64,000 nucleotides of DNA from Limnohabitans sp. (GTDB lineage: Bacteria; Pseudomonadota; Gammaproteobacteria; Burkholderiales; Burkholderiaceae_C), in assembly GCF_030158565.1 (NCBI RefSeq), contig NZ_JAOASQ010000023.1:1-64000 (forward strand). The letters are read 5' to 3'. Position 1 is the stretch's first letter. Every line of letters starts with the position of its first letter. The position numbers were made by a program, and so were the translations under genes. Positions 3,812 through 57,223 of this stretch are shown piece by piece. The notes beneath the pieces were generated by a model. That model was given only the letters and a program-made list of their open reading frames with translations. It was not told the origin of the DNA and did not search any database.

Positions 3812-5383
3812 ATGACCACCGCATTGCTCCCCAACTTTTTCGCAGGCCGCTGGCAAACCGGCACCGGCGCAGGCACGCCGATGTTGGACCCGGTGCTGGG
3901 CACCGAGCTGGCCCGCGTGTCGAGCGCAGGCATCGACCTGGCCGAAGGCTTTGCCTTTGCCCGTGAGCAAGGCGGCGCGGCCCTGCGCGCCCTGAGCTAC
4001 GGCCAGCGCGCAGGCCTGCTCACCAAAATCACCGAAGTACTGCAGGCCAACCGCGATGCCTATTACGAGATCGCCACCGCCAACAGCGGCACCGTGGCCA
4101 AGGACTCGGGCGTGGACATCGACGGCGCCATCTTCACGCTGGGCTACTACGCCAAGCAGGGCGCGGCGCTGGGCGATGCCACGCTGCTGCTCGACGGCGA
4201 GCGCATCCGCATGGCCAAGGACCCGGCTTTCCAGACGCAGCACATCCAGGTACCCACACGCGGCGTGGCGCTGTTCATCAACGCCTTCAACTTCCCCAGC
4301 TGGGGCTTGTGGGAAAAAGCCGCCCCGGCCCTGCTTGCAGGCGTGCCCGTCATCATCAAACCCGCCACCGCGACCGCCTGGCTGACCCAGCGCATGGTGA
4401 AAGACGTGGTCGATGCGGGCGTTCTCCCCGTGGGCGCTTTGTCGGTCATTTGCGGCTCGTCCGCAGGCCTGATGGACCAGCTGCAAGCCTTTGACGTGGT
4501 GAGCTTCACCGGCTCGGCCGAGACCGGCAAGATCATCCGCAGCCACCGCGCCGTGACCGAGCTGTCGGTGCGCTGCAACATCGAGGCCGACAGCCTGAAC
4601 TCCGCCCTGCTCTCGCCCGCAGCCACGGCCGACAGCGAAGCCTTCAAGCTGCTGGTGGCCGAAGTCGCCCGCGAAATGACTGTCAAATCGGGCCAGAAGT
4701 GCACCGCGATCCGCCGCGTCTTTGTGCCCCGCGCACTCTACCAAGCCGCCGCCGAAGCCATTGGGGCGCGCCTGGCCAAAACCACCGTGGGCAACCCGCG
4801 CAACGAAACCGTGCGCATGGGCGCCCTGGTCAGCCAGGAACAAAAAGCCAGCGTGCTGGCGGGCCTGGCCCAGCTCAAGACCGAAGCCACCGTGCTGTAT
4901 GACGGCAACACCGCTGCCCTGGTCGATGCCGATGCCAACAGCGCCTGCGTGGCCCCGGTGCTGCTGGGCACCGAACAGCCCATGGCCGCCAAAGTGCTGC
5001 ACGCGGTCGAGGTGTTCGGCCCCGTGTCCACCCTGATGCCTTACGACAGCATCGACGAGGCCTACGCCATGATCCGCCGCGGCGAAGGCTCACTGGTGTG
5101 CTCGGTCTACAGCGAAGACCCGGCCTTCACCGCGCAAGCCTCGATCGAACTGGCCAGCAGCCATGGCCGAGTGCACGCGATTTCGCCCGACGTGGCGGCC
5201 CTGCACAGCGGCCACGGCAACGTGATGCCCATGAGCCTGCACGGCGGCCCCGGCCGCGCCGGTGGCGGCGAAGAGCTGGGGGGCCTTCGTGCGCTCAACT
5301 TCTATCACCGCCGCAGCGCGGTGCAAGGCAGCGCGCTGGCCCTGGACGCATTGGCCGCCCAAGGCGGCAAACTGGCCCTGTGA
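3812..5383 (+). CDS. boxD: 3,4-dehydroadipyl-CoA semialdehyde dehydrogenase (NADP+)
   Basis: This ALDH-superfamily enzyme oxidises the ring-opened semialdehyde made by BoxC to 3,4-dehydroadipyl-CoA. It is also called boxZ in some organisms. The 523-aa protein carries the ALDH hallmarks: the NFPSWGLWEK cofactor region, FTGSAETG, and the catalytic cysteine in SGQKCTAIRR near residue 297. It resembles the ALDH part of PaaZ but has no hydratase domain. It starts the plus-strand arm of the cluster, divergent from boxR and downstream of TGCA operators, and is followed by bclA. Confidence 0.9.
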   Translation: MTTALLPNFFAGRWQTGTGAGTPMLDPVLGTELARVSSAGIDLAEGFAFAREQGGAALRALSYGQRAGLLTKITEVLQANRDAYYEIATANSGTVAKDSGVDIDGAIFTLGYYAKQGAALGDATLLLDGERIRMAKDPAFQTQHIQVPTRGVALFINAFNFPSWGLWEKAAPALLAGVPVIIKPATATAWLTQRMVKDVVDAGVLPVGALSVICGSSAGLMDQLQAFDVVSFTGSAETGKIIRSHRAVTELSVRCNIEADSLNSALLSPAATADSEAFKLLVAEVAREMTVKSGQKCTAIRRVFVPRALYQAAAEAIGARLAKTTVGNPRNETVRMGALVSQEQKASVLAGLAQLKTEATVLYDGNTAALVDADANSACVAPVLLGTEQPMAAKVLHAVEVFGPVSTLMPYDSIDEAYAMIRRGEGSLVCSVYSEDPAFTAQASIELASSHGRVHAISPDVAALHSGHGNVMPMSLHGGPGRAGGGEELGGLRALNFYHRRSAVQGSALALDALAAQGGKLAL

Positions 5384-5389
5384 ACCCTT

Positions 5390-5458
5390 TGTAGGAGCCG
5401 CGCCCTCGCGGCGAAAACACCTCAGAAGACACATCGCTGCGAGGGCGCAGCTCCTACA
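5390..5458. repeat. REPIN-like inverted pair of GTAGGAGC palindromic repeats
   Basis: An imperfect 69-bp inverted repeat starts with tgtaggag and ends with ctcctaca. Each arm holds its own GC-rich hairpin (gccctcgcggc / gctgcgagggc). It lies between boxD and bclA. Related copies occur at 29852-29924, about 30768-30793 and 56034-56109. The GTAGGAGC head is typical of REP sequences mobilised by RAYT transposases. Confidence 0.7.
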
Positions 5459-13265: not shown

Positions 13266-14264
13266 TCAAACCGATTCGCCGCGTGGGCCGCGGCCCATCA
13301 GCACCTGCACGGCTTCGCGCGCTTGAAGACGACCATCCAGCAAAGCCACCACCGCCTCGGTGATCGGCATGTCCACACCCAGACTTTGCGCCCGCTGCCA
13401 GACAGTGCGGGCGCTGTACACGCCTTCGGCCACATGGCCCAGCGAGGCCACGGCCTGCGCCAGGCTCAGGCCCTGGGCCAGCAAAAGGCCCACTTTGCGG
13501 TTGCGACTCAAATCGCCGGTGGCGGTCAGCACCAAATCGCCCAACCCCGACAAGCCCATGAAGGTCTCGGCCTTGGCCCCCAGGGCCAGGCCCAGACGGG
13601 TCATTTCGGCCAGGCCGCGTGTGATGAGGGCTGCACGGGCGTTGAGCCCCAGGTCCAGGCCATCGCACAGGCCGGTGGCAATGGCCAGCACGTTTTTGAC
13701 GGCCCCGCCCACTTCCACCCCCACGATGTCTTCGTTGGCGTACACCCGCAGTGCCGAGCCATGGAAAGCTTGCACCAGTGCGTCGCGCACCGTGGCATGA
13801 GGGCTGGCCGCCACCAGCGCAGTCGGTTGGCTGCGGGCCACTTCGAGGGCGAAGCTCGGGCCACTCAGAGCGCCGGCTTGCAAATGGGGGGCCACCTGGG
13901 CTTGCACTTCGTGCGGCATGAGGCCGCTGCCGGACTCGAAGCCTTTGCACAGCCAGGCCACAGGACCGGGCACAGCATGCAAGGCCTGTAAAGTGGCGCG
14001 CAGGCCCGACATGGGCGTGGCGACGATGAAGAGGTCTTGTGCCTGGGCCTGCGCCACCAGCGGCGCCAAAGGGCCACTGAGGATGTTCAAACCAGAGGGC
14101 AAGTCCACGCCCGGCAGGTACCGGCCGTTTTGGCCCTGATCACGCAGGGCTACGGCTTGCGCCTCATCGCGGGCATGCAACCGCACCGCGTGGCCAGGGA
14201 TGCGGCAAGCCGCCATCGCGATGGCGGTGCCCCAGGCGCCAGCGCCAATGACCGTGATGCGCAT
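13266..14264 (-). CDS. gpsA: Glycerol-3-phosphate dehydrogenase [NAD(P)+]
   Basis: Makes sn-glycerol 3-phosphate from dihydroxyacetone phosphate for phospholipid synthesis. The 332-aa cytosolic enzyme shows the dinucleotide site GAGAWG at residues 7-12, the family motif [13 protein letters not shown] with the catalytic lysine near residue 187, and the [14 protein letters not shown] segment. It is the last gene of the run rhodanese-grxC-secB-gpsA, the same order as yibN-grxC-secB-gpsA in E. coli; it starts 18 bp after secB. Confidence 0.96.
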
Positions 14265-14282: not shown

Positions 14283-14744
14283 TTACTGCTGGGTCGCAGC
14301 GGCTTGCGCTTGCTGCTGCTCGTACATGGCCTGGAAGTTGATCTCGGCCAGGTGCACAGGAGGGAAGCCAGCGCGGGTGATCAGGTCCGCCACGTTGCCG
14401 CGCAGGTAGGGGTACACGATCTGAGGGCAGGCGATGCCCATGATGGCGCCCATCTGGTCTTCGGGCACGTTGCGGATTTCAAAGATGCCGCCTTGCTTGC
14501 ACTCGACCAGGAACACGGTCTTGTCGCCGATCTTGGTGTGCACGGTGGCGGTGACACAAACTTCAAACACGCCTTCGGCCACTGGGGTGGCTTCCACGCC
14601 CAGCTGGATGTCCACGCTGGGTTGCTGCTGCTCCAGCAAGATGGCGGGCGAATTGGGCTGCTCCAGCGAAGCCTCTTTCAGGTAAACGCGCTGGATCTGG
14701 AAAACAGGGGATTGGGCTTCGGTGTTGACAGCGGTATCGGTCAT
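14283..14744 (-). CDS. secB: Protein-export chaperone SecB
   Basis: SecB is a tetrameric cytosolic chaperone that keeps preproteins unfolded and hands them to SecA. The 153-aa acidic protein has the family core [19 protein letters not shown] near residues 12-32 and the [22 protein letters not shown] strand region. A C-terminal Ala/Gln-rich tail (AQAAATQQ) is typical of betaproteobacterial SecB. It sits between grxC and gpsA. Confidence 0.97.
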
Positions 14745-14869
14745 GAAGTTCTCTTGAAGAAAAAATACGGGCAGTCCACAGGGGACCGCCCAAGGATGAA
14801 ACAGGTCAATTATCAGCGATCAGAAACAGGCCAAGGGCGCTGCCCAGCCTGTGAAAACCCCAAGGGTTT

Positions 14870-15130
14870 TCAGGCCGCTTGCAGCAAGGGCAGCAAGCCG
14901 CCCTTGGCGTCGAGTGCCATCAGGTCGTCACAGCCGCCCACATGGGTGTCACCCACATAAATTTGCGGCACAGTGCGGCGGCCTGTGATCTGCATCATGT
15001 GGTCGCGCTGAGCGGGGTCCAGGTCGATGCGGATTTCTTCGATCTGCTCCACGCCTTTGGCTTTGAGCAACTGCTTGGCACGCACGCAGTAAGGGCAGAC
15101 GGCGGTGGTGTACATCTTGACGTTTTGCAT
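14870..15130 (-). CDS. grxC: Glutaredoxin 3
   Basis: A small dithiol glutaredoxin that reduces disulfides and glutathione mixed disulfides in the cytosol. The 86-aa protein carries the active site CPYC at residues 12-15, the cis-proline segment TVPQIYVG and the GGCDDL motif that binds glutathione. It is 17 bp downstream of the rhodanese gene. Its stop codon lies inside a 9-bp hairpin (14852-14872) that lacks a T-run. Confidence 0.95.
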   Translation of the reverse strand: MQNVKMYTTAVCPYCVRAKQLLKAKGVEQIEEIRIDLDPAQRDHMMQITGRRTVPQIYVGDTHVGGCDDLMALDAKGGLLPLLQAA

Positions 15131-15147
15131 GGGGAGTTCCTTAGGTA

Positions 15148-15549
15148 TCAGGCTTTTTCGACGGGCATGCTGGCCGCTTGCCAGGCTTTGAGGCCACCGG
15201 CCAGAGACTGCACGTTCTCAAAACCGAGTTTGCGGGCCGTGGCAGCCGCGCGGGCCGAACGGGCCCCCACCTGGCAAACCATGACCACCTGGGCCGATTT
15301 GCTCTTGACGAGCTGGGCCAATTTTTCTTCCAGCTGCCCCAAAGGCAGGTTTTTGGCACCGATCACATGGCCACGCGCGAATTCGTCGGGCTCGCACACA
15401 TCGATGACGATGGCTTTTTCGCGGTTCATCAGCTGCACCATGTCCTGGGGGCTGAGGCCTTGGCCTTTGCTCAAAGCAGGGAAAAGCAATGCCAGACCCG
15501 AGGCCAGGGCCACGGTGATGAGCATCCAGTTGTCGAGGAGAAATTTCAC
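15148..15549 (-). CDS. Membrane-anchored rhodanese-like protein (YibN type)
   Basis: The 133-aa protein has one N-terminal hydrophobic segment (residues about 8-26) followed by a single rhodanese domain exposed to one side of the membrane. The active-site loop is CQVGARSAR with Cys92, so sulfurtransferase activity is possible. The start is a GTG. It heads the grxC-secB-gpsA operon and is divergent from gpmA. The YibN family's substrate is not established here. Confidence 0.9.
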   Translation of the reverse strand: MKFLLDNWMLITVALASGLALLFPALSKGQGLSPQDMVQLMNREKAIVIDVCEPDEFARGHVIGAKNLPLGQLEEKLAQLVKSKSAQVVMVCQVGARSARAAATARKLGFENVQSLAGGLKAWQAASMPVEKA

Positions 15550-15662
15550 GAATCAGACCTTTGTAAACCACAAAATACCGGCCCGTCAGCGAGCCGCCAA
15601 GTCCAGATTCTAAAATGCGAGGCTTTCCCCCTGTTTTTCGCAGCCTGTGCTGCTTTGCCAAT

Positions 15663-16400
15663 ATGTACAAAATCGTCCTGATCCGCCACGGCGAATCCAC
15701 CTGGAACCTTGAAAACCGCTTCACCGGCTGGACCGATGTGGACCTGACCCCCACCGGCGTGAGCCAGGCCATGTCGGCCGGCAAACTGCTCAAGGCCGAA
15801 GGCTGGGACTTTGACCTGTGCTACACCTCGGTGCTCAAGCGCGCCATCCACACCCTCTGGTAGACCCTGGACGAGATGGACCGCACCTGGCTGCCCGTGG
15901 TCAAGGACTACCGCCTGAACGAGCGCCACTACGGCGGTCTGCAAGGTCTGAACAAAGCCGACATGGCCAAGCAGTACGGCGAAGAGCAAGTGCTGATCTG
16001 GCGCCGCAGCTACGACACCCCACCGCCCGCCCTGGAAGCCACCGACCCCCGCTGCGAGCGCAACGACCGCCGCTACCCCAATCCCGAGGCCGTGCCCTTG
16101 ACCGAGTGCCTCAAAGACACCGTGGCCCGCGTGCTGCCTGCCTGGAACGACTCGATCGCCCCCAGCATCAAGTCCGGCAAGCGCGTGCTGATCGCGGCGC
16201 ATGGCAACTCGATCCGCGCCCTGATCAAGTACCTGGACGGCATCTCCGACAGCGACATCGTGGGCCTGAACATCCCCAACGGCATCCCGCTGGTGTACGA
16301 GCTGGACGAGAACCTCAAACCGATCCGCCACTACTACCTGGGCGATGCCGCAGCAGCCGCCGCAGCAGCCGCCGCCGTGGGCAACCAAGGCAAGGCCTGA
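15663..16400 (+). pseudogene. gpmA: 2,3-bisphosphoglycerate-dependent phosphoglycerate mutase interrupted by an in-frame amber codon
   Basis: The frame from ATG 15663 to TGA 16398-16400 encodes a complete 245-codon GpmA (family about 247 aa), apart from a TAG at 15861-15863 (codon 67). The first part has the catalytic His9 in RHGESTWN. The rest continues in the same frame with [10 protein letters not shown] (Glu87) and the second catalytic His180 in AAHGNS. Homologues have glutamine at this position ([14 protein letters not shown]), so one C-to-T change in CAG explains it. The downstream part is well conserved and shows no other damage. It may be a recent nonsense mutation, a suppressed codon or a sequencing error. 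Confidence 0.85.
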
Positions 16401-16524
16401 GGCGCACAGGGCGGCGCTGGATCGCTGCACTGGCTCTTTACCTGAAATTACAGGCCCACCCCGGCAGGGGCTGGGCCTGCGGTGTATATTGACCTGCATC
16501 TCCTACAGGGAACAGACAAGCAAT

Positions 16525-17979
16525 ATGGGACAGAAACTCAAGATCGTCGGTTGGCTCAGCGTGGGCGCTCTGGCGGGCGCACTGACCACCGTGTCGCTGC
16601 AAACCGTCGCACGCGGCAACATGGCGCCATTGCCACTCGAAGAGCTGCAACAACTGGCCGCCGTGTTTGGCATGGTCAAGAGCGACTATGTCGAGCCGGT
16701 GGACGAGAAAAAGCTCATCACCGAAGCCATCTCCGGCATGGTCTCGAGTCTGGACCCCCACTCGCAGTATTTTGACAAAAAGAGCTTCAAGGAATTTTCC
16801 GAAGGCACCTCCGGCAAATTCGTCGGTGTGGGCATCGAGATCAGCCAGGAGGACGGCCTGATCAAGATCGTCTCGCCCATCGAGGGCTCCCCGGCGGACC
16901 GCGCAGGCCTCAAAACCAATGACCTGATCACCAAGATCGACAGCACCGCGGTCAAAGGCCTGTCGCTGAGTGAAGCCGTCAAGCGCATGCGTGGCGAGCC
17001 CAACACCAAAGTGGTGTTGACCATCTTCCGCAAGGACGACAGCCGCACCTTCCCGGTGACCATCATCCGTGAGGAAATCAAGACCCAATCGGTCAAGGTC
17101 AAACTCATTGAGCCGGGCTATGGCTGGGTGCGTGTGTCGCAATTCCAGGAACGCACCGTGGAAGACTTTGCCCGCAAGGTCGAAGACATGGTCAAGCAGT
17201 CGCCCCAGCTCAAAGGCCTGGTGCTCGACCTGCGCAACGATCCGGGCGGCCTGCTCGACGCCGCCGTGGCCTTGTCGGCCGCCTTCCTGCCAGAAAACGT
17301 CACCGTGGTCTCCACCAACGGCCAGCTCGAAGAAAGCAAATTCACCTACAAGGCCTCGCCCAAGTTCTGGCGTCGCAACGAGAGCAACGACCCGATCCAG
17401 CGCCTGACGCAAGCCACCGGTGGCGTGCTCAAGAAAGTGCCCTTGGTCGTGCTGGTTAACGAAGGCTCGGCCTCGGCCAGCGAGATCGTGGCTGGTGCCC
17501 TGCAAGACTACAAACGCGGCACCTTGATGGGCAGCCAGACCTTTGGCAAAGGCTCGGTGCAGACCGTGCGTCAATTGGGCCCAGACACCGCGCTCAAGAT
17601 CACCACCGCCCGCTACTACACGCCCAATGGCCGCGCCATCCAGGCCAAGGGCATCGTGCCCGATGTGATGCTCGACGAGACCGAGAACGGCAACCTGTTT
17701 GCCGCATTGCGCACCCGCGAAGCCGATCTGCAAAAACACCTGTCCAACGGCAAAGGCAAGGAAGACGAGAAGCTGGACCCCGAGCGTGAAAAAGCGCGCG
17801 AAGAGGCCCTGAAGAAACTCGAAGAAGACGCCAAGAAACCCCTTTCAGAGCGCCGCCTGCCCGAGTTTGGCTCCGACAAGGACTTCCAGCTGCAGCAAGC
17901 CCTGAACCAGCTCAAGGGACTGCCCGTCAAAGCCAGCACCACACTGGCAGAACGCAAGGCCGAGAAAAAAGACGAGTGA
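16525..17979 (+). CDS. ctpA: C-terminal processing peptidase, S41 family
   Basis: Periplasmic Ser/Lys protease that trims C-termini of envelope proteins. The 484-aa product begins with an uncleaved-looking signal/anchor (residues 5-25), then a PDZ domain (about 95-170, with FVGVGIEISQEDGLIKI), the catalytic serine in the GSASASE block (314-320) and Lys342 in FGKGSVQ. A charged, Lys/Glu-rich tail follows. I chose the ATG at 16525, although the frame is open further upstream. It lies 124 bp after gpmA and overlaps or abuts moeB. Confidence 0.93.
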   Translation: MGQKLKIVGWLSVGALAGALTTVSLQTVARGNMAPLPLEELQQLAAVFGMVKSDYVEPVDEKKLITEAISGMVSSLDPHSQYFDKKSFKEFSEGTSGKFVGVGIEISQEDGLIKIVSPIEGSPADRAGLKTNDLITKIDSTAVKGLSLSEAVKRMRGEPNTKVVLTIFRKDDSRTFPVTIIREEIKTQSVKVKLIEPGYGWVRVSQFQERTVEDFARKVEDMVKQSPQLKGLVLDLRNDPGGLLDAAVALSAAFLPENVTVVSTNGQLEESKFTYKASPKFWRRNESNDPIQRLTQATGGVLKKVPLVVLVNEGSASASEIVAGALQDYKRGTLMGSQTFGKGSVQTVRQLGPDTALKITTARYYTPNGRAIQAKGIVPDVMLDETENGNLFAALRTREADLQKHLSNGKGKEDEKLDPEREKAREEALKKLEEDAKKPLSERRLPEFGSDKDFQLQQALNQLKGLPVKASTTLAERKAEKKDE

Positions 17980-21001: not shown

Positions 21002-21973
21002 ATGCACAACCTATTTTTTCGCCACAGCCTGCTGGGCATCTTGGGGCTGCTGATCGGGACGGCCAGCATCGCCCAGACGGCCCCGTGGCCGATCAAACCG
21101 GTCAAGTTCATCAACAGCTTCCCACCCGGCGGGCCTTCAGACATCCTGGCGCGTGCTGTCGGCGATGTGTTACAAAAACAATTCAACCAAGCCTTTGTGG
21201 TGGAAAACAAGGCCGGGGCCTCAGGCAATGTGGGTGCCGATGCGGTCGCCAAATCTGCCGCCGATGGCTATACCTTGCTGTGGGGCATCGACACCACCCA
21301 CACCATCAACCCGCACATCTACAAAACCATGCCGTTCAAGGAAGCGGACCTCAAGCCCGTCATGGTGATCGCCAGCTCGGGCCTGTTGGTGGGCGTGCAT
21401 CCCGGCACACAGATCAAGACACTGCCTGAGTTCATGCAAGTCGCCCGTCAACGCAGCCTCAACTTCAGCTCTGGTGGCAACGGCTCGCCAGGCCACTTGT
21501 GGGTCAACATGGCCAACCTCGCAGCGGCGACCCGCTTGGTGCACGTGCCTTACCGTGGCAATTCGCCGGCAGTGCTGGCGGTCGTGGCTGGCGAGGTGGA
21601 TGGCGGCACGCTGGCCACAACCGGCATGCTGCCCCAAGTCAAAAGCAACAAGGTGACGGCCTTGGCCACGACCAGCCGCAAGCGTTCACGCGTGGCCCCC
21701 GAGATCCCCACCGTCGGCGAACTGGGCCACAAAGAGCTGGAAAGTGAAGTGGTTTACGTCGTCATGGTCCCAGGTCAAACCCCAGAGTCCACCATGCAAA
21801 CGCTGAGCAAAGCCTTGCTGGATGCACTCAACAGGCCTGAACTGCAAAGCAAGATCCAGGATCTGGACATGGCCTACGAAGGCCTGAGCGGCAGCGCAGC
21901 AGTCAACCGTCTCAAAGGACTGTCGGACCACTACGGCCGCGTCATCCGGGCGACTGGCATGAAAGTCGATTGA
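21002..21973 (+). CDS. Bug-family tripartite tricarboxylate transporter receptor (second of tandem pair)
   Basis: The 323-aa product has a signal peptide ending near SIAQT (residue 22) and the Bug motifs FPPGGPSDILARAVG and NKAGASGNVGAD. It is clearly diverged from the receptor just upstream, so the pair is not a recent duplication. A good ribosome site (GGGAGAA) precedes ATG 21002. It lies 19 bp before the sulfatase gene, which suggests that the bound solute is a carboxylated or sulfated organic compound; this is inference. Confidence 0.9.
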   Translation: MHNLFFRHSLLGILGLLIGTASIAQTAPWPIKPVKFINSFPPGGPSDILARAVGDVLQKQFNQAFVVENKAGASGNVGADAVAKSAADGYTLLWGIDTTHTINPHIYKTMPFKEADLKPVMVIASSGLLVGVHPGTQIKTLPEFMQVARQRSLNFSSGGNGSPGHLWVNMANLAAATRLVHVPYRGNSPAVLAVVAGEVDGGTLATTGMLPQVKSNKVTALATTSRKRSRVAPEIPTVGELGHKELESEVVYVVMVPGQTPESTMQTLSKALLDALNRPELQSKIQDLDMAYEGLSGSAAVNRLKGLSDHYGRVIRATGMKVD

Positions 21974-21992
21974 AACGCCCCCGCCTGAGTCC

Positions 21993-23327
21993 ATGACCAC
22001 CAACCCACGCCCCAACATCATCTTCATCGTGGCCGACGACCTCGGCTTTGCGGACCTGGGCTGCTATGGCGGTCGCGATGCGCAGTTCGGCAAGGTCTCG
22101 CCCGTGCTCGACCAGCTGGCCGCCAAAGGCCTCAAATTCACACAGGGTTACGCCAACTCGCCCGTGTGCTCGCCCACCCGCTTTGCGCTCATGACGGCCC
22201 GCTACCAATACCGCCTGCGCGGCGGTGCCGACGAACCCATCAACAGCAAGAGCAAAGGCAGCACCGTGCTCGGCTTGCCGCCCGAGCACCCCAGCCTGCC
22301 CTCGCTGCTCAAGGCCAGCGGTTACCGCACAGCCCTCATCGGCAAATGGCACCTCGGTTACCCGCCGCACTTCAGCCCGATCAAGTCGGGCTACGAAGAA
22401 TTTTTTGGCCCCATGTCAGGCGGCGTGGACTATTTCACCCATGCCAGCAACAACGGCACGCACGACCTCTACACCAACGAAGAAGAAAAACACGAAGACG
22501 GCTACCTGACCGACCTGATCTCGCACAAGGCGGTGGATTTTGTGCAGCGCATGGCCCCCGGCGCTGCGCAAGGCACGCCCTTCTTTTTGAGCTTGCACTA
22601 CACCGCGCCACACTGGCCCTGGGAAACCCGCGAAGACCACGCGCTGGCAGCCGAGGTCAAGGACAACCTGTTCCACCTGCACGGCGGCAACATCCACACC
22701 TACCACCGCATGATCCACCACATGGACGAAGGCATTGGCTGGGTGGTCGATGCGCTGCAAAAAACCGGGCAACTCGACAACACCCTGATCGTCTTCACCA
22801 GCGACAACGGCGGCGAGCGTTTCAGCGACAACTGGCCGCTGGTGGGCGGCAAGATGGACCTGACCGAAGGCGGCATCCGCGTGCCGTGGATCGCGCACTG
22901 GCCTGCCGTGATCGCGCCCGGCGGCACCTCGGCCCAGCACTGCATGACCATGGACTGGTCGGCCACCATGGTCGAGCTGGCAGGCGCCAAGGCCCATGAC
23001 GACTTGCCCTTTGATGGCGTGTCTTTGGCCCCCGTGCTGCGCGATGCCCAGCACCAGTTTGAGCGGCCCCTTTACTGGCGCATGAACCACCGAGGCCAAC
23101 GCGCCCTGCGCATGGGCGACTACAAATACCTGCGGGTGGACGGCAACGACTATCTGTTCAACATCCCGGCCGACGAACGCGAACGCGCCAACCTGGGCGG
23201 GCGCCAAGCCGAGCGCTTGCAAGCCATGCGCGCTGCGTGGGAGGCGTGGGACGCCACCGTGCCCGCCATCCCCGAAGACGCGACGGTGAGCCTGGGCTAC
23301 TCGGTCAAAGACATGCCGCAGCGCTGA
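21993..23327 (+). CDS. Type I sulfatase (arylsulfatase-like), cytosolic form
   Basis: The 444-aa protein belongs to the alkaline phosphatase/sulfatase superfamily. Metal-binding D15-D16 (IVADDLGFADLG) and the formylglycine motif C59-S60-P61-T62-R63 are present, so it needs maturation of Cys59 by an FGE-type enzyme, which is not in the window. The N-terminus goes straight into the catalytic strand with no signal peptide, so it should act in the cytosol after uptake of the ester. Its place after two receptors and before a SulP transporter suggests sulfate-ester use. Confidence 0.9.
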   Translation: MTTNPRPNIIFIVADDLGFADLGCYGGRDAQFGKVSPVLDQLAAKGLKFTQGYANSPVCSPTRFALMTARYQYRLRGGADEPINSKSKGSTVLGLPPEHPSLPSLLKASGYRTALIGKWHLGYPPHFSPIKSGYEEFFGPMSGGVDYFTHASNNGTHDLYTNEEEKHEDGYLTDLISHKAVDFVQRMAPGAAQGTPFFLSLHYTAPHWPWETREDHALAAEVKDNLFHLHGGNIHTYHRMIHHMDEGIGWVVDALQKTGQLDNTLIVFTSDNGGERFSDNWPLVGGKMDLTEGGIRVPWIAHWPAVIAPGGTSAQHCMTMDWSATMVELAGAKAHDDLPFDGVSLAPVLRDAQHQFERPLYWRMNHRGQRALRMGDYKYLRVDGNDYLFNIPADERERANLGGRQAERLQAMRAAWEAWDATVPAIPEDATVSLGYSVKDMPQR

Positions 23328-28566: not shown

Positions 28567-29844
28567 ATGCTCCGCACCCTCTTCGTTGACTTCAACAGCT
28601 ACTTCGCCTCGGTCGAGCAGCACCTGAACCCGGCCCTGCGTGGGCGGCCGGTGGGGGTGGTGCCGGTCGTGACCGATTCCTCGTGTTGCATTGCGGCAAG
28701 CATTGAAGCCAAGGCCTTCGGGGTGAAGACGGGCACGGGCGTGGCCGAGGCCAAGCGTTTGTGTCCGGGCATCGCCATCGTGCTGGCCGACCATGCCAAA
28801 TATGTCGAGATTCACCAGCAAGCCGTGGCGGCGGTGGATCGGATCGTGCCAGTGCGTCAGGTGTTGTCGATTGACGAGATGGAGTGCGAGCTGACGGGCC
28901 GCTGGCGTGAACGTGACCGGGCCATCGCATTGGCGCATCAGGTCAAGGCCGAGGTGCAGCGCAGCGTGGGCGAATGCCTGCGCAGCTCGATTGGCATCGC
29001 GCCCAACACGCTGCTGGGCAAGCTGGCCTCCGACATGCACAAGCCCGATGGCCTGACGGTGATCGAGCAGCACGAGTTGCCCGAGCGGCTGTATCCACTG
29101 AAGCTGTCAGACATTCAAGGCATTGGCCCGCGCATGCGCGAGCGCTTGTCGCGCTGCGGCATCGAGACGATGGAACAGCTCTATGCCGCGCCGCGAGATT
29201 TGCTGCACACAGCTTGGGGCGGCTTGGCGGGGGCTGACATGTACGACAAACTGCGCGGCCAGTGGTACGGGCCACGCGCCACCGTGGCGCGGTCGCTGGG
29301 GCATTCGCATGTGTTGCCGCCCGACTTGCGCCACCCCGAGGGGGCCCGCCAAGTGCTGCACCGGCTGACGCAAAAGGCGGGCATGCGGCTGCGCAAGCAG
29401 GGCTTTTACGCCACGGCCATGCAGGTGTTTGTGCGCTGTGACCACCGCTGGCAGCGCGAATCGGGCGGCGAGCGCTCTGTGCAGGTGGGCGAAACACAGG
29501 ACACCGGCTTTTTGCTGAACACGCTGGACCAGCTGTGGTTCAGTGGCTTGCACCGGTTGCAAGGCCCCAAGGCCGTGGGCATTCAGCTGTGCGGCTTGGT
29601 GCTGGCCAGTCAGCACACCCCCGATTTGTTTGACACCTTGCCTCCCCCCGAAGCCACTGCTGCACAAACCTTGCAAAACCACAGCACATTGCGCGACCGG
29701 GCCCGCCTCATGTCGGCTATGGACGCACTCAACCGCGCACAAGGCAAAAACACGGTGTACTTCGCCAGCGCCCACCACACGTTGGATGCCGCGCCCATGC
29801 GCATCGCGTTCAACCGGATTCCGGATCTGGAGACGGAGCGCTGA
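28567..29844 (+). CDS. Y-family translesion DNA polymerase (DinB-like)
   Basis: Error-prone polymerase that copies damaged DNA. The 425-aa protein keeps the catalytic acids D8 (VDFNSYFASVEQ) and D103-E104 (LSIDEMECEL), so it is not the inactive ImuB type. The Y12-F13 pair forms the steric-gate region. Two helix-hairpin-helix parts (LSDIQGIGPRMRERL) and a little-finger domain follow. A TPDLF segment near the C-terminus could bind the sliding clamp. The ATG at 28567 follows a LexA box; earlier in-frame codons would start upstream of that box. No umuD or imuA is near. Confidence 0.9.
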   Translation: MLRTLFVDFNSYFASVEQHLNPALRGRPVGVVPVVTDSSCCIAASIEAKAFGVKTGTGVAEAKRLCPGIAIVLADHAKYVEIHQQAVAAVDRIVPVRQVLSIDEMECELTGRWRERDRAIALAHQVKAEVQRSVGECLRSSIGIAPNTLLGKLASDMHKPDGLTVIEQHELPERLYPLKLSDIQGIGPRMRERLSRCGIETMEQLYAAPRDLLHTAWGGLAGADMYDKLRGQWYGPRATVARSLGHSHVLPPDLRHPEGARQVLHRLTQKAGMRLRKQGFYATAMQVFVRCDHRWQRESGGERSVQVGETQDTGFLLNTLDQLWFSGLHRLQGPKAVGIQLCGLVLASQHTPDLFDTLPPPEATAAQTLQNHSTLRDRARLMSAMDALNRAQGKNTVYFASAHHTLDAAPMRIAFNRIPDLETER

Positions 29845-29851
29845 GGCTGTG

Positions 29852-29924
29852 GTGGGAGCGGCGCCCTCGCCGCGATAGAGCGCTCGCAGACCTCAGACAT
29901 TCGCCGCGGGGGCGCGGCTCCCAC
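29852..29924. repeat. REPIN-like inverted pair of GTGGGAGC palindromic repeats
   Basis: A 73-bp inverted repeat starts with gtgggagcggcgccctcg and ends with gggggcgcggctcccac. Its spacer shares the block acctcaga..acat with the copy at 5390-5458, so the two are the same element. It lies between the convergent polymerase and DUF429 genes. Confidence 0.7.
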
Positions 29925-29943
29925 ACGGTCAGGGATCAAAGGG

Positions 29944-30759
29944 TCAGGCGGTGACGATCCAGCCTTCGAGCGGATCGCAGGGCGGCAAGCCGTATTGCGA
30001 GTGCCCGGCTTCGTGCTGCTGCTGCGCCCAGGCAGCCTGCATCAGGCACAAGGTGGCGTCGAGCGCATCGCCGCTGGCGTCATCGGCCAGGCGGCCCATC
30101 AGCGCATTGCTGGCCACCAGACGGAAACCCAAGCGGGTTTGCCCACGCTCGAGCGCGCCCAGCAATTCGCGCCGGGCCAGCAGGCGCTCGGGCGTTTGCT
30201 TGGCTTTGTCGTCGCTTTTGTAGCTGCGGTTACCCAGCATCTCACGCGCCAGCAAGCCGGGGTAGGCCTCCAGCGCCACGCGGCGGGCATCGCCCGCATG
30301 CAAACCGGGCAGGTGCACACCCGCTTGGCGCAGCAGGGGCACACCCGCGTGCAGCATGTAGGCCACGGGCGGGTTGACCCATTTCATGGACGGGCTGGAG
30401 CCTGCGGGTTTGTCGGCAGCGCGGTGCGCAAACTTGCCGCCAGCCGGGCGGGCGTTGCAAAACGCCGCAAACTGTTCGCGAATTTGGGAGCGCTCCAAGG
30501 CACAGTAATGGTCCATGCAGGCGGTCCAGTCGGTGGGCCAGCCCAGTGTCTCGACCAGCTCACGCGGCAGGCCAAAGGGCAGGTCAAAACCACCCACCCA
30601 ATCGGCAGGCTGCGCCAGCCACTCGCCAAACGCACTCAGGGTGTCAAAGGTGTGCAGGGCTTGCAGCTGCACCCTGCCCTGCCGCGCCTGGCCCTGTGCC
30701 AGCACGATGGGCTTGCGCTTGGAGGGGCTGCTGGAGAAATCACAGCCGATGAGATGCAT
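29944..30759 (-). CDS. DUF429 family protein
   Basis: A 271-aa soluble protein. The start MHLIGCDFSSSPSKRKPIVLA with an Asp in the first strand, and the later EAYPGLLAREMLG and DDASGDALDATLCLMQAAWA segments with conserved acids, are typical of DUF429, a family predicted to have an RNase H-like fold. The activity is not known. It is flanked by REP-like repeats on both sides and is convergent with the SOS-controlled polymerase. Confidence 0.8.
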   Translation of the reverse strand: MHLIGCDFSSSPSKRKPIVLAQGQARQGRVQLQALHTFDTLSAFGEWLAQPADWVGGFDLPFGLPRELVETLGWPTDWTACMDHYCALERSQIREQFAAFCNARPAGGKFAHRAADKPAGSSPSMKWVNPPVAYMLHAGVPLLRQAGVHLPGLHAGDARRVALEAYPGLLAREMLGNRSYKSDDKAKQTPERLLARRELLGALERGQTRLGFRLVASNALMGRLADDASGDALDATLCLMQAAWAQQQHEAGHSQYGLPPCDPLEGWIVTA

Positions 30760-30767
30760 GGGTAATT

Positions 30768-30793
30768 TCGCGACGAGGGCGTCGCTCCTACAG
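30768..30793. repeat. Solitary REP-like palindrome
   Basis: The segment cgacgagggcgtcgctcctac forms a small hairpin (cgacgagggcgtcg) followed by GCTCCTAC, the complement of the GTAGGAGC head. It corresponds to one arm of the paired elements at 5390 and 29852. It lies between the DUF429 and BLUF genes. Confidence 0.55.
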
Positions 30794-54704: not shown

Positions 54705-55976
54705 ATGGCTGTCTGGACCCTCGGTTTGAACCACACGACTGCGCCGCTGGATTTGCGCGGCCGGTTTGCGTTCGCCGTGGACCAATTGGCCCCCACTTTG
54801 CAGGGTTTGCGCAGCGACTTGGCCCAGCGCACCGACCAGACGCCCGAAGCGGCGATCTTGTCCACCTGCAACCGCACCGAAATTTATTGCGCCGCCGACC
54901 AGGCGGCCACCGCCGACACCCTTCGCTGGCTGGCCCAGGCCGGTGGCGTGACGGCGCAAGAGCTGCAATCGCACACCTATTTGCTCGAAGGCAACGAAGC
55001 CGCACGGCACGCCTTTCGGGTGGCCAGCGGGCTCGACTCGATGGTGCTGGGCGAAGCCCAAATCCTGGGGCAACTGAAAGACGCGGTGCGTGCCGCCGAA
55101 CAAGCCGGCGCTTTGGGCAGCACCCTCAACCAGCTGTTTCAACGCACTTTTGCCGTGGCCAAGGAAGTGCGCACGGCCACCGAAATCGGTGCCCACTCGA
55201 TCAGCATGGCCGCCGCCTCGGTGCGCCTGGCCAGCCAGCTGTTTGAAGACCTGAAAAACATCAAGGTGCTGTTTGTCGGCGCAGGCGAGATGATCGAGTT
55301 GGTGGTGACGCACTTTGCCGCCCGCCAGCCCAAGGCCATCGCGATCGCCAACCGCAGCCTGGAGCGGGGCGAAAAGCTCGCTGGCCGCTTTGGGGCCGAA
55401 GTCATGCGCCTGGCCGAGTTGCCCGATCGCCTGCACGAGTTCGACGCCGTGATCAGCTGCACCGCCAGCACCCTGCCCCTGATCGGTCTGGGTGCGGTCG
55501 AGCGGGCGCTCAAGAAACGCAAACACCGCCCCATGTTCATGGTCGATCTGGCCGTGCCGCGTGACATCGAGCCCGAGGTCAAATCGCTCGAAGACGTGTA
55601 CCTCTACACCGTGGACGATCTGGCCAGCGTGGTGCAAGCGGGCCAGGCCCAGCGCCAAGCGGCAGTGGCCGAGGCCGAAGTGATCATCGACGCGGGCGTG
55701 CAAAGCTTCAACCACTGGCTGGGCCAGCGCGACGCCGTGCCCCTGATCCAGCAGCTGCACAGCCAAGCCGACAGCTGGCGCGAGGCCGAACTGGCCCGCG
55801 CCCGCAAGCTGCTGGCCAAAGGCGAGGACCCCGAAGCCGTGCTGGAAGCCTTGGCCAAAGGCCTGACCCAGAAAATGCTGCACGGCACCCTGGCCGAACT
55901 GCGCAGCGCCGACCCCGCGCACCGCGAGCAGACCATGCAGGCGGTTCAGCGGCTGTTTTTGCGGCAAGAGCGTTAG
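54705..55976 (+). CDS. hemA: Glutamyl-tRNA reductase
   Basis: First committed enzyme of C5-type heme synthesis: reduces glutamyl-tRNA(Glu) to glutamate 1-semialdehyde with NADPH. The 423-aa product has the catalytic Cys55 in [10 protein letters not shown], the NADPH site [13 protein letters not shown], and a C-terminal dimerisation helix. The stop codon is TAG. It leads the hemA-prfA-prmC group common in proteobacteria. Confidence 0.96.
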
Positions 55977-56033: not shown

Positions 56034-56109
56034 TTTTGTAGGAGCCAGCCTGCTGGCGATGGAGCCTGATGGTCGCCCAACCATCGCTTGCAGGCAAGCT
56101 CCTACAAAA
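56034..56109. repeat. REPIN-like inverted pair, second subtype
   Basis: Perfect 12-bp outer arms ttttgtaggagc / gctcctacaaaa enclose two inner hairpins (ccagcctgctgg and ttgcaggcaa type), with gcgatgg / ccatcgc pairing across the centre. The head GTAGGAGC is shared with the elements at 5390 and 30768, but the inner sequence differs. It lies between hemA and prfA. Confidence 0.7.
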
Positions 56110-56134: not shown

Positions 56135-57223
56135 ATGAAACCCTTTTTGATCCAACAACTCGAACGCTACGCCCTGCGGCTGACCGAGCTGGACTTTTTG
56201 CTGTCCCGCGAAGACATCATGGCCGACATGACGCAGTTCCTGAAGCTCTCGCGGGAACATGCCGAGGTCAGTGCCGTGGCCTCGCGCTTTGCCCGCTTTC
56301 AGCAGCGCAGCGCCGATCTGGCTGCCGCCCAAGCCATGCTGGATGACGCCGACCTGCGCGAGATGGCCGAAGAAGAAGTGGCCAGCGCCAGCGCCGAGCT
56401 GCAAACGCTGGAGGGCGAATTGCAGCGCATGCTGCTGCCCAAAGACCCCGATGACGCCCGCCCGGCGTTTGTCGAAATCCGCGCGGGCACCGGGGGTGAC
56501 GAGTCGGCGCTGTTTGCCGCCGACTTGCTGCGCATGTACACCCGCTATGCCGAAAGCCAGGGCTGGAAGTGCGAGATCGTGTCTGAATCGGTGAGCGAGC
56601 TGGGCGGCTACAAAGAAGTCGTGGTGCGCATCGAAGGCGACCAGGTTTACGGCGCACTCAAGTTTGAATCGGGCGGCCACCGGGTGCAGCGCGTGCCCGC
56701 CACCGAAACCCAAGGCCGCATCCACACCAGCGCCTGCACCGTGGCGGTGCTGGCCGAGCCGGACGAAGCCGAGGCCATCAAGATCAACCCCTCCGATTTG
56801 CGCATCGACACCTACCGCGCCAGCGGTGCGGGCGGGCAGCACATCAACAAGACCGATTCGGCCGTGCGCATCACCCACTTGCCCACCGGCATCGTGGCCG
56901 AATGCCAGGACGGCCGCAGCCAGCACAGCAACAAGGCGCAGGCCCTGAAGGTGCTGACGGCCCGCATCCAGGAAAAAGACCGGGCCGAACGCGCCGCCAA
57001 AGACGCGGCCGAACGCAAGAGCCTGATCGGCAGCGGCGACCGCTCGGACCGCATCCGCACCTACAACTTTCCGCAAGGGCGCCTGACCGACCACCGCATC
57101 AACCTGACGCTTTACAAGCTGCTGAGCATCATGGAGGGCGATTTGAAAGACGTGGTCGATGCGCTACAGGCCTACGAAGCCGCAGAGCAACTGGCGGCGC
57201 TGGAGATCGGGGCGACGGCGTGA
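56135..57223 (+). CDS. prfA: Peptide chain release factor 1
   Basis: Ends translation at UAA and UAG. The 362-aa product has the stop-codon reading loop PAT in [14 protein letters not shown] and the catalytic GGQ at residues 233-235 ([15 protein letters not shown]). Both are intact, so UAG should be read as stop in this organism, which bears on the amber codon in gpmA. ATG 56135 is preferred. It overlaps prmC by one base. Confidence 0.97.

Follow-up and report, generated by a model that had tools for sequence, protein, structure and literature searches.

Why does the phosphoglycerate mutase gene of a Limnohabitans strain carry an in-frame stop, and why exactly at codon 67? The window analyzed here, a stretch of 64,000 nucleotides, lies at the start of a contig of 193 kb, which belongs to an assembly of 3.05 Mb (75 contigs, 92% complete). 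As a preliminary description of this DNA had stated, the frame from 15663 to 16400 on the forward strand is intact except for TAG at 15861-15863 (codon 67), the single internal stop before the end at TGA 16398-16400. Read across this stop, the frame matches TIGR01258 with 375 bits over positions 2-245, above the family cut-off and with "1 TAG" inside, and the N-terminal and C-terminal parts each exceed the same cut-off separately. The interrupted gene comprises the following elements.

15663 to 16400, forward strand: gpmA, 2,3-bisphosphoglycerate-dependent phosphoglycerate mutase, interrupted (TIGR01258).
15663 to 15863, forward strand: N-terminal open reading frame of 66 amino acids, containing RHG (His9).
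15876 to 16400, forward strand: possible C-terminal open reading frame starting at Met72, 174 amino acids, containing AHGN (His180).

The two conserved histidines are indeed split by the stop, as had been proposed earlier: His9 is located 5' and His180 3' of TAG, and no single polypeptide carries both. We take these residues to be the catalytic histidines of GpmA. Since translation should stop after 66 residues and thereby separate them, we predict a null allele. A lone stop in this gene is unremarkable as such, because 77 different single substitutions could make one. It is the position of the amber codon at a recombination edge that is noteworthy, unlike the mere presence of a stop. Among the gpmA matches listed for 149 genomes and for 150 genomes of the family (with the own genome in both sets), this is the sole stop-containing match that reaches profile position 245. 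Eleven other rows above the cut-off contain stops (two in the 149-genome set, nine in the family set), with alignments ending at positions 229-240 of 245, and these stops may be natural C-terminal ends. One further weak gpmA match with a stop inside occurs in genome G052.

Codon 67 is variable among relatives. Our survey covered 80 named loci recruited via a neighboring gene, 78 of which hold both gpmA halves. Codon 67 is CAC at 26 of these 78 loci, TAC at 25, CTG at 11, CAT at seven, TTC at five, TAT at three and TTG at one, corresponding to His (33), Tyr (28), Leu (12) and Phe (5). Gln, which homologues had initially been assumed to carry here as CAG, is present at none of the 78 loci, nor at any of the 24 readable loci out of 30 further ones that were counted apart, the other six being located on the opposite strand and giving no sensible reading. 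An origin of the amber from a Gln codon is therefore rejected. The databank proteins give the same picture: among the 300 matches listed, the motif at residues 63-67 was readable in 228 (72 lacked a pattern match), and it reads RTLWL in 73, HTLWY in 66, WTLWH in 23, RTLWH in 16 and HTLWH in 15, besides rarer forms, with Gln at residue 67 in none of the 228. The window encodes His at residue 63, which in databank proteins mostly accompanies Tyr, His or Phe at residue 67. Across the family, residues 63 and 67 seem to covary (R/L, H/Y, W/H, L/F), with R/H and H/H also occurring, and they are perhaps a structural pair.

The region upstream of the stop is a mosaic. As proxies for the recipient we used four genomes of the Jir72 clade (L066-L069, L066 being Limnohabitans sp. 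Jir72), and as proxy for the donor the genome of Hippo3 (L078). The tract, its flanks and the codon in which the sequence type changes are organized as follows.

13266 to 14264, reverse strand: gpsA, recipient-type left flank (NF000940 over cut-off), grouping with L066-L069.
14283 to 14744, reverse strand: secB (NF004394 and TIGR00809 over cut-off), within which the left boundary of the tract falls.
14506 to 15862, no strand: Hippo3-like recombination tract, based on identity, trees and permutation.
14870 to 15130, reverse strand: open reading frame within the tract, presumably glutaredoxin-like, named from the CPYC motif in its translation.
15148 to 15549, reverse strand: rhodanese-domain protein within the tract, below specific cut-offs.
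15861 to 15863, forward strand: in-frame TAG, codon 67 of gpmA, with bases 1-2 donor-type and base 3 recipient-type.
16525 to 17979, forward strand: S41 C-terminal processing peptidase (ctpA-type), recipient-type right flank (TIGR00225 over cut-off).

Over the tract, 1320 of 1357 positions are identical to Hippo3, versus 1117-1139 of 1357 to the four Jir72-clade genomes. The tree of the tract joins the window with Hippo3 (support 1.0), while both flanks place it with the Jir72 clade (support 0.997 for the left flank, 0.991 for the right one), so the placement of the tract is discordant with either side. The same switch is seen at diagnostic sites, where the four recipient proxies agree among themselves and differ from the donor proxy. 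Before 14506 all 50 sites are recipient-type; between 14506 and 15862, 64 of 73 are donor-type, seven recipient-type and two neither; and from 15863 to 17000, 62 of 68 are recipient-type and six donor-type. The nine non-donor sites within the tract and the six donor-type sites after it imply that these genomes are only proxies for the true parents. The left edge falls within 14467-14505, as bounded by sites where the four recipient proxies agree. In 200-base bins, Jir72 or its clade is nearest in most bins before approximately 14.3 kb, identity to Hippo3 is 94-100% from 14325 to approximately 15.9 kb, and beyond that point the Jir72 clade is again mostly nearest, with single bins nearest to other relatives. 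The S41 peptidase encoded to the right shares 96% identity with that of Limnohabitans sp. Jir72 and 95% with that of Limnohabitans lacus, which indicates a freshwater bacterium of the Limnohabitans type. When the genus was searched with the tract, 86 of 90 genomes matched, the best non-own match reaching 97% and the next 91%.

The mosaic is largely confined to this place. A scan of the 64 kb with Jir72 as the other parent yielded 14506-16039 as the best Hippo3-like run, with a score of 170. None of 2000 permutations came near this value, the highest scoring 26, in a test that shuffles sites and ignores relatedness. Weaker runs nearer to Hippo3 score 42, 37, 26, 18 and 12, the first three being located at 21435-22985, 29510-30103 and 44-1374; as those scoring 42 and 37 exceed the permutation maximum, other small exchanges in the window are possible. 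Of the 62 bins (500 bp each) in which both relatives are aligned, 14 are closer to Hippo3 than to Jir72, and four bins reach 96% identity to Hippo3, three of them within the tract and one outside (bin 501). Extensive strain mixing across the whole window was not seen, albeit with these weaker Hippo3-nearer runs.

We propose that an intracodon recombination seam between two strain alleles made the TAG and truncated GpmA, and we consider this the best and a probable explanation. A Limnohabitans recipient of a Jir72-like clade would have imported approximately 1.36 kb resembling a Hippo3-like relative, comprising part of secB, the glutaredoxin-like gene, the rhodanese gene and codons 1-66 of gpmA. 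On its right side the exchange would end inside codon 67, which is TAC in donor-type relatives and CTG in recipient-type ones. The donor presumably had TAC (with His63) and the recipient CTG (with Arg63), and the seam would join the TA of the donor to the G of the recipient. Translation would then end after residue 66 and the catalytic histidines would be parted, resulting in a null allele. The bases themselves are donor-type up to 15862 and recipient-type at 15863. We compared the window with relatives of the RTLWL type (A, seven loci) and of the HTLWY type (B, 13 loci), groups that were picked by that motif. The window follows B at codon positions 63.2, 67.1 and 67.2. At the remaining four (67.3, 92.2, 146.1 and 173.3) it follows A, so that all seven diagnostic sites are consistent with a single switch.

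Seams were also modeled for six A and eight B loci (48 pairs) at 536 positions over the first 537 bases of gpmA, 25,728 seams in total. Exactly 48 of them make a stop, one for each pair and every one at 15863, the agreement of the pairs at codon 67 being expected because the 14 loci were picked as RTLWL or HTLWY types. With the same pairs and positions in the reverse direction, none of the 25,728 seams makes a stop. The seam is thus an economical explanation, because one of 536 seam positions yields the stop, versus 77 ways to make one by point mutation. The right edge is soft, however. With one recipient proxy at a time, the highest-scoring segment extends to 15862 for L067, 15887 for L069, 16039 for L066 and 16172 for L068, and forcing the end to 15862 costs 0, 1, 3 and 5 score units, respectively. 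The edge lies at 15862 or up to approximately 15916, and later with two of the four single proxies. In addition, a seam within three adjacent mismatches is mechanistically awkward, which counts against it.

The softness of this edge leaves room for the main rival, a natural tract that runs past codon 67 (ending within 15864-15916 or later) and in which the stop arose separately at 15863, by point mutation of TAC or as a single wrong base call. TAC is found in 25 of the 78 relatives and is one base away from TAG. Three of the four single recipient proxies place the edge beyond 15862, and from 15864 to 15916 the window is identical to the donor proxy Hippo3 at 53 of 53 positions and likewise to the recipient proxy L067 at 53 of 53, which is why a longer tract with a separate change fits as well. 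Yet the second event would have to land on the very first recipient-type base after the donor run and produce a base equal to that of the recipient, although 77 stop-making changes were possible in gpmA, and the change from TAC to TAG is a transversion. We therefore regard this order of events as unlikely, and the seam itself, rather than a later mutation, as the probable source of the stop.

If the allele is null, the consequence for the cell depends on other mutases. The preliminary description had suggested that GpmI elsewhere takes over, but the cofactor-independent enzyme (iPGM, gpmI) was detected in none of the 90 genomes of the genus, the own genome included, and no apgM was detected in the own genome (92% complete); a takeover by either is therefore improbable. 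A second gpmA was not found in the assembly, where the remaining PF00300 places correspond to other histidine phosphatases: a GpmB/alpha-ribazole-type protein on contig C50, an alpha-ribazole-type protein on C7, a SixA-like protein on C38 and a member of a hypothetical family on C70. All four are below the cut-offs of the matching models and were discarded as substitutes for GpmA. The C50 protein (positions 4754-5341, locus L001) is intact and belongs to the same superfamily as GpmA, but, unlike GpmA, it falls under the TIGR01258 cut-off (58.4 bits versus 81.7) and is also below all other listed models. Two other genomes of the genus, G047 and G068 (92% and 95% complete), have neither a TIGR01258 match over the cut-off nor an iPGM; their gpmA is probably missing from the assemblies.

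According to PMC2964296, 56 of 60 betaproteobacterial genomes encode only the cofactor-dependent enzyme (dPGM), four only iPGM and none lacks both, and phosphoglycerate mutase is essential in several bacteria. Combined with the lack of any other detected mutase, this predicts that the allele is strongly deleterious. It would then be a dead-end variant, an artefact, or the broken allele of a cell that has a further copy within the 8% of the genome not assembled. Given that the search for gpmI and for an apgM-type mutase was negative, the amber is probably either a recent loss or an artefact. A very recent loss had been among the options offered at the outset and fits best of these, yet by neither of the routes envisaged: the relatives surveyed carry no Gln from which the amber could have derived, and no iPGM that might take over was detected in the genomes of the genus.

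That the sole enzyme for a step of central metabolism should be null already casts doubt on the consensus sequence. The assembly might have merged two co-occurring strains, so that the amber would be present in no cell; the TAG may also stem from low coverage, from a wrong base or from an unusual step in building the consensus. The fragmentation and incompleteness of the assembly point in this direction, as does a gpmA without visible backup. Intact recipient-type proteins that are 97% alike exist (P0122-P0124), none closer at full length among the 120 matches listed. However, neither a TAC nor a CTG parent has the junction word, so a k-mer misjoin alone should not yield TAG. A consensus taken by majority from linked reads of the two types would select one parental codon and should not yield TAG either, unless reads carry the joint. 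This reasoning favors a real molecule. The mosaic is moreover confined, with three of the four 500-bp bins at 96% to Hippo3 falling in the tract, and a second gpmA is not found in the assembly. We consider an artefact improbable, and the mosaic is more plausibly a real molecule.

Could the cell instead read through the amber codon? The preliminary description had judged UAG to be a normal stop, citing an intact RF1 gene and the closing TAG of the upstream open reading frame that it labeled hemA, and all three points hold. TAG terminates 22 of 280 long non-overlapping open reading frames in 389 kb of the genome, the hemA-type frame closes with TAG at 55974-55976, and the release factor gene is complete.

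56135 to 57223, forward strand: prfA, intact release factor 1 (TIGR00019, 508.8 bits).

Given this stop usage and the intact RF1, reassignment of the amber codon is rejected. For suppression or readthrough, which had also been offered as an option, no positive evidence emerged. No tRNA with a CUA anticodon is among the 29 tRNA genes found in this 92% complete genome, an incomplete set (39 in a complete relative) that lacks tRNAs for Gln, Tyr and Trp and is accompanied by two further weak matches. Interrupted genes were sought by scanning the stop sites in the 389 kb and judging them by eye. A first version gave 68 candidates, mostly antisense shadows, and a stricter second version returned one site and missed gpmA. 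In the third version, 35 of 1449 stop sites, gpmA included, have a coding signal on both sides, the others mostly looking like ordinary borders of neighboring genes, and no other stop clearly splits a gene.

Some databank proteins resemble the downstream piece. Among the 120 matches listed, 13 GpmA proteins are shorter than 244 amino acids, and six of these begin at Met72 (P0121, P0125, P0151, P0191, P0227 and P0229). P0121 and P0125, which are close to this clade, are 174 amino acids long and differ from the C-terminal piece of the window at three and six residues, respectively. Both may derive from broken alleles or from contigs ending near the polymorphic codon, and contig edges or other breaks also explain the short Met72-start forms. 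An N-terminal copy of 66 amino acids identical to that of the window is not among the 120 matches listed. Another protein, P0127, looks by eye like a GpmA chimera of two species, with its N-terminal third differing in origin from the rest. Decoding of the amber by a suppressor tRNA or readthrough, with production of full-length GpmA, would account for the lack of another mutase and could agree with an allele present in more than one strain, if P0121 and P0125 are so interpreted, but against the ordinary use of UAG, the intact RF1, the absence of a CUA anticodon from the tRNAs found and the lack of other split genes it is very improbable. Just as far-fetched is the reading that several strains of the clade share a circulating TAG allele of the sole phosphoglycerate mutase, tolerated via UAG readthrough, with P0121 and P0125 as its downstream pieces.

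Next to prfA, an inverted element with arms GTAGGAGC...GCTCCTAC is located at 56038-56105, between the hemA-type frame and prfA. A second copy is present at 5391-5457 and a single arm at 30784, and neither TGTAGGAGC nor its complement occurs in contig C38. We presume that it resembles the REP elements of pseudomonads.

If the seam at codon 67 is real, this locus would provide a clean natural case in which two working alleles gave rise to a dead one via an in-codon joint, in a gene without visible backup. If it is an artefact, it advises that in-frame stops of fragmented assemblies be checked against strain mosaics before recoding or gene loss is called. In the literature covered by our narrow search, in-codon joints are mainly known from simulations and one virus study. 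With a uniform distribution of breakpoints, recombination falls within codons two thirds of the time (PMC3364941). Intracodon recombination sites have been reported in a virus and are called more prominent in viruses and bacteria (PMC3598932). A naturally observed, stop-making intracodon seam in a bacterium was not encountered in this narrow search, which included PMC2532693 on intragenic recombination. Similar to gpmA here, mutase genes of Pseudomonas putida F1 and Clostridium phytofermentans have an in-frame stop and were read as pseudogenes, yet P. putida F1 keeps another full-length iPGM (both according to PMC2964296), whereas the search of the own genome revealed no further mutase. The proposed seam is closest to the intracodon homologous recombination of the NetRecodon and GenomePop simulations, with which it would share a breakpoint inside a codon that creates a codon of neither parent; the difference is that in gpmA this new codon is a stop.
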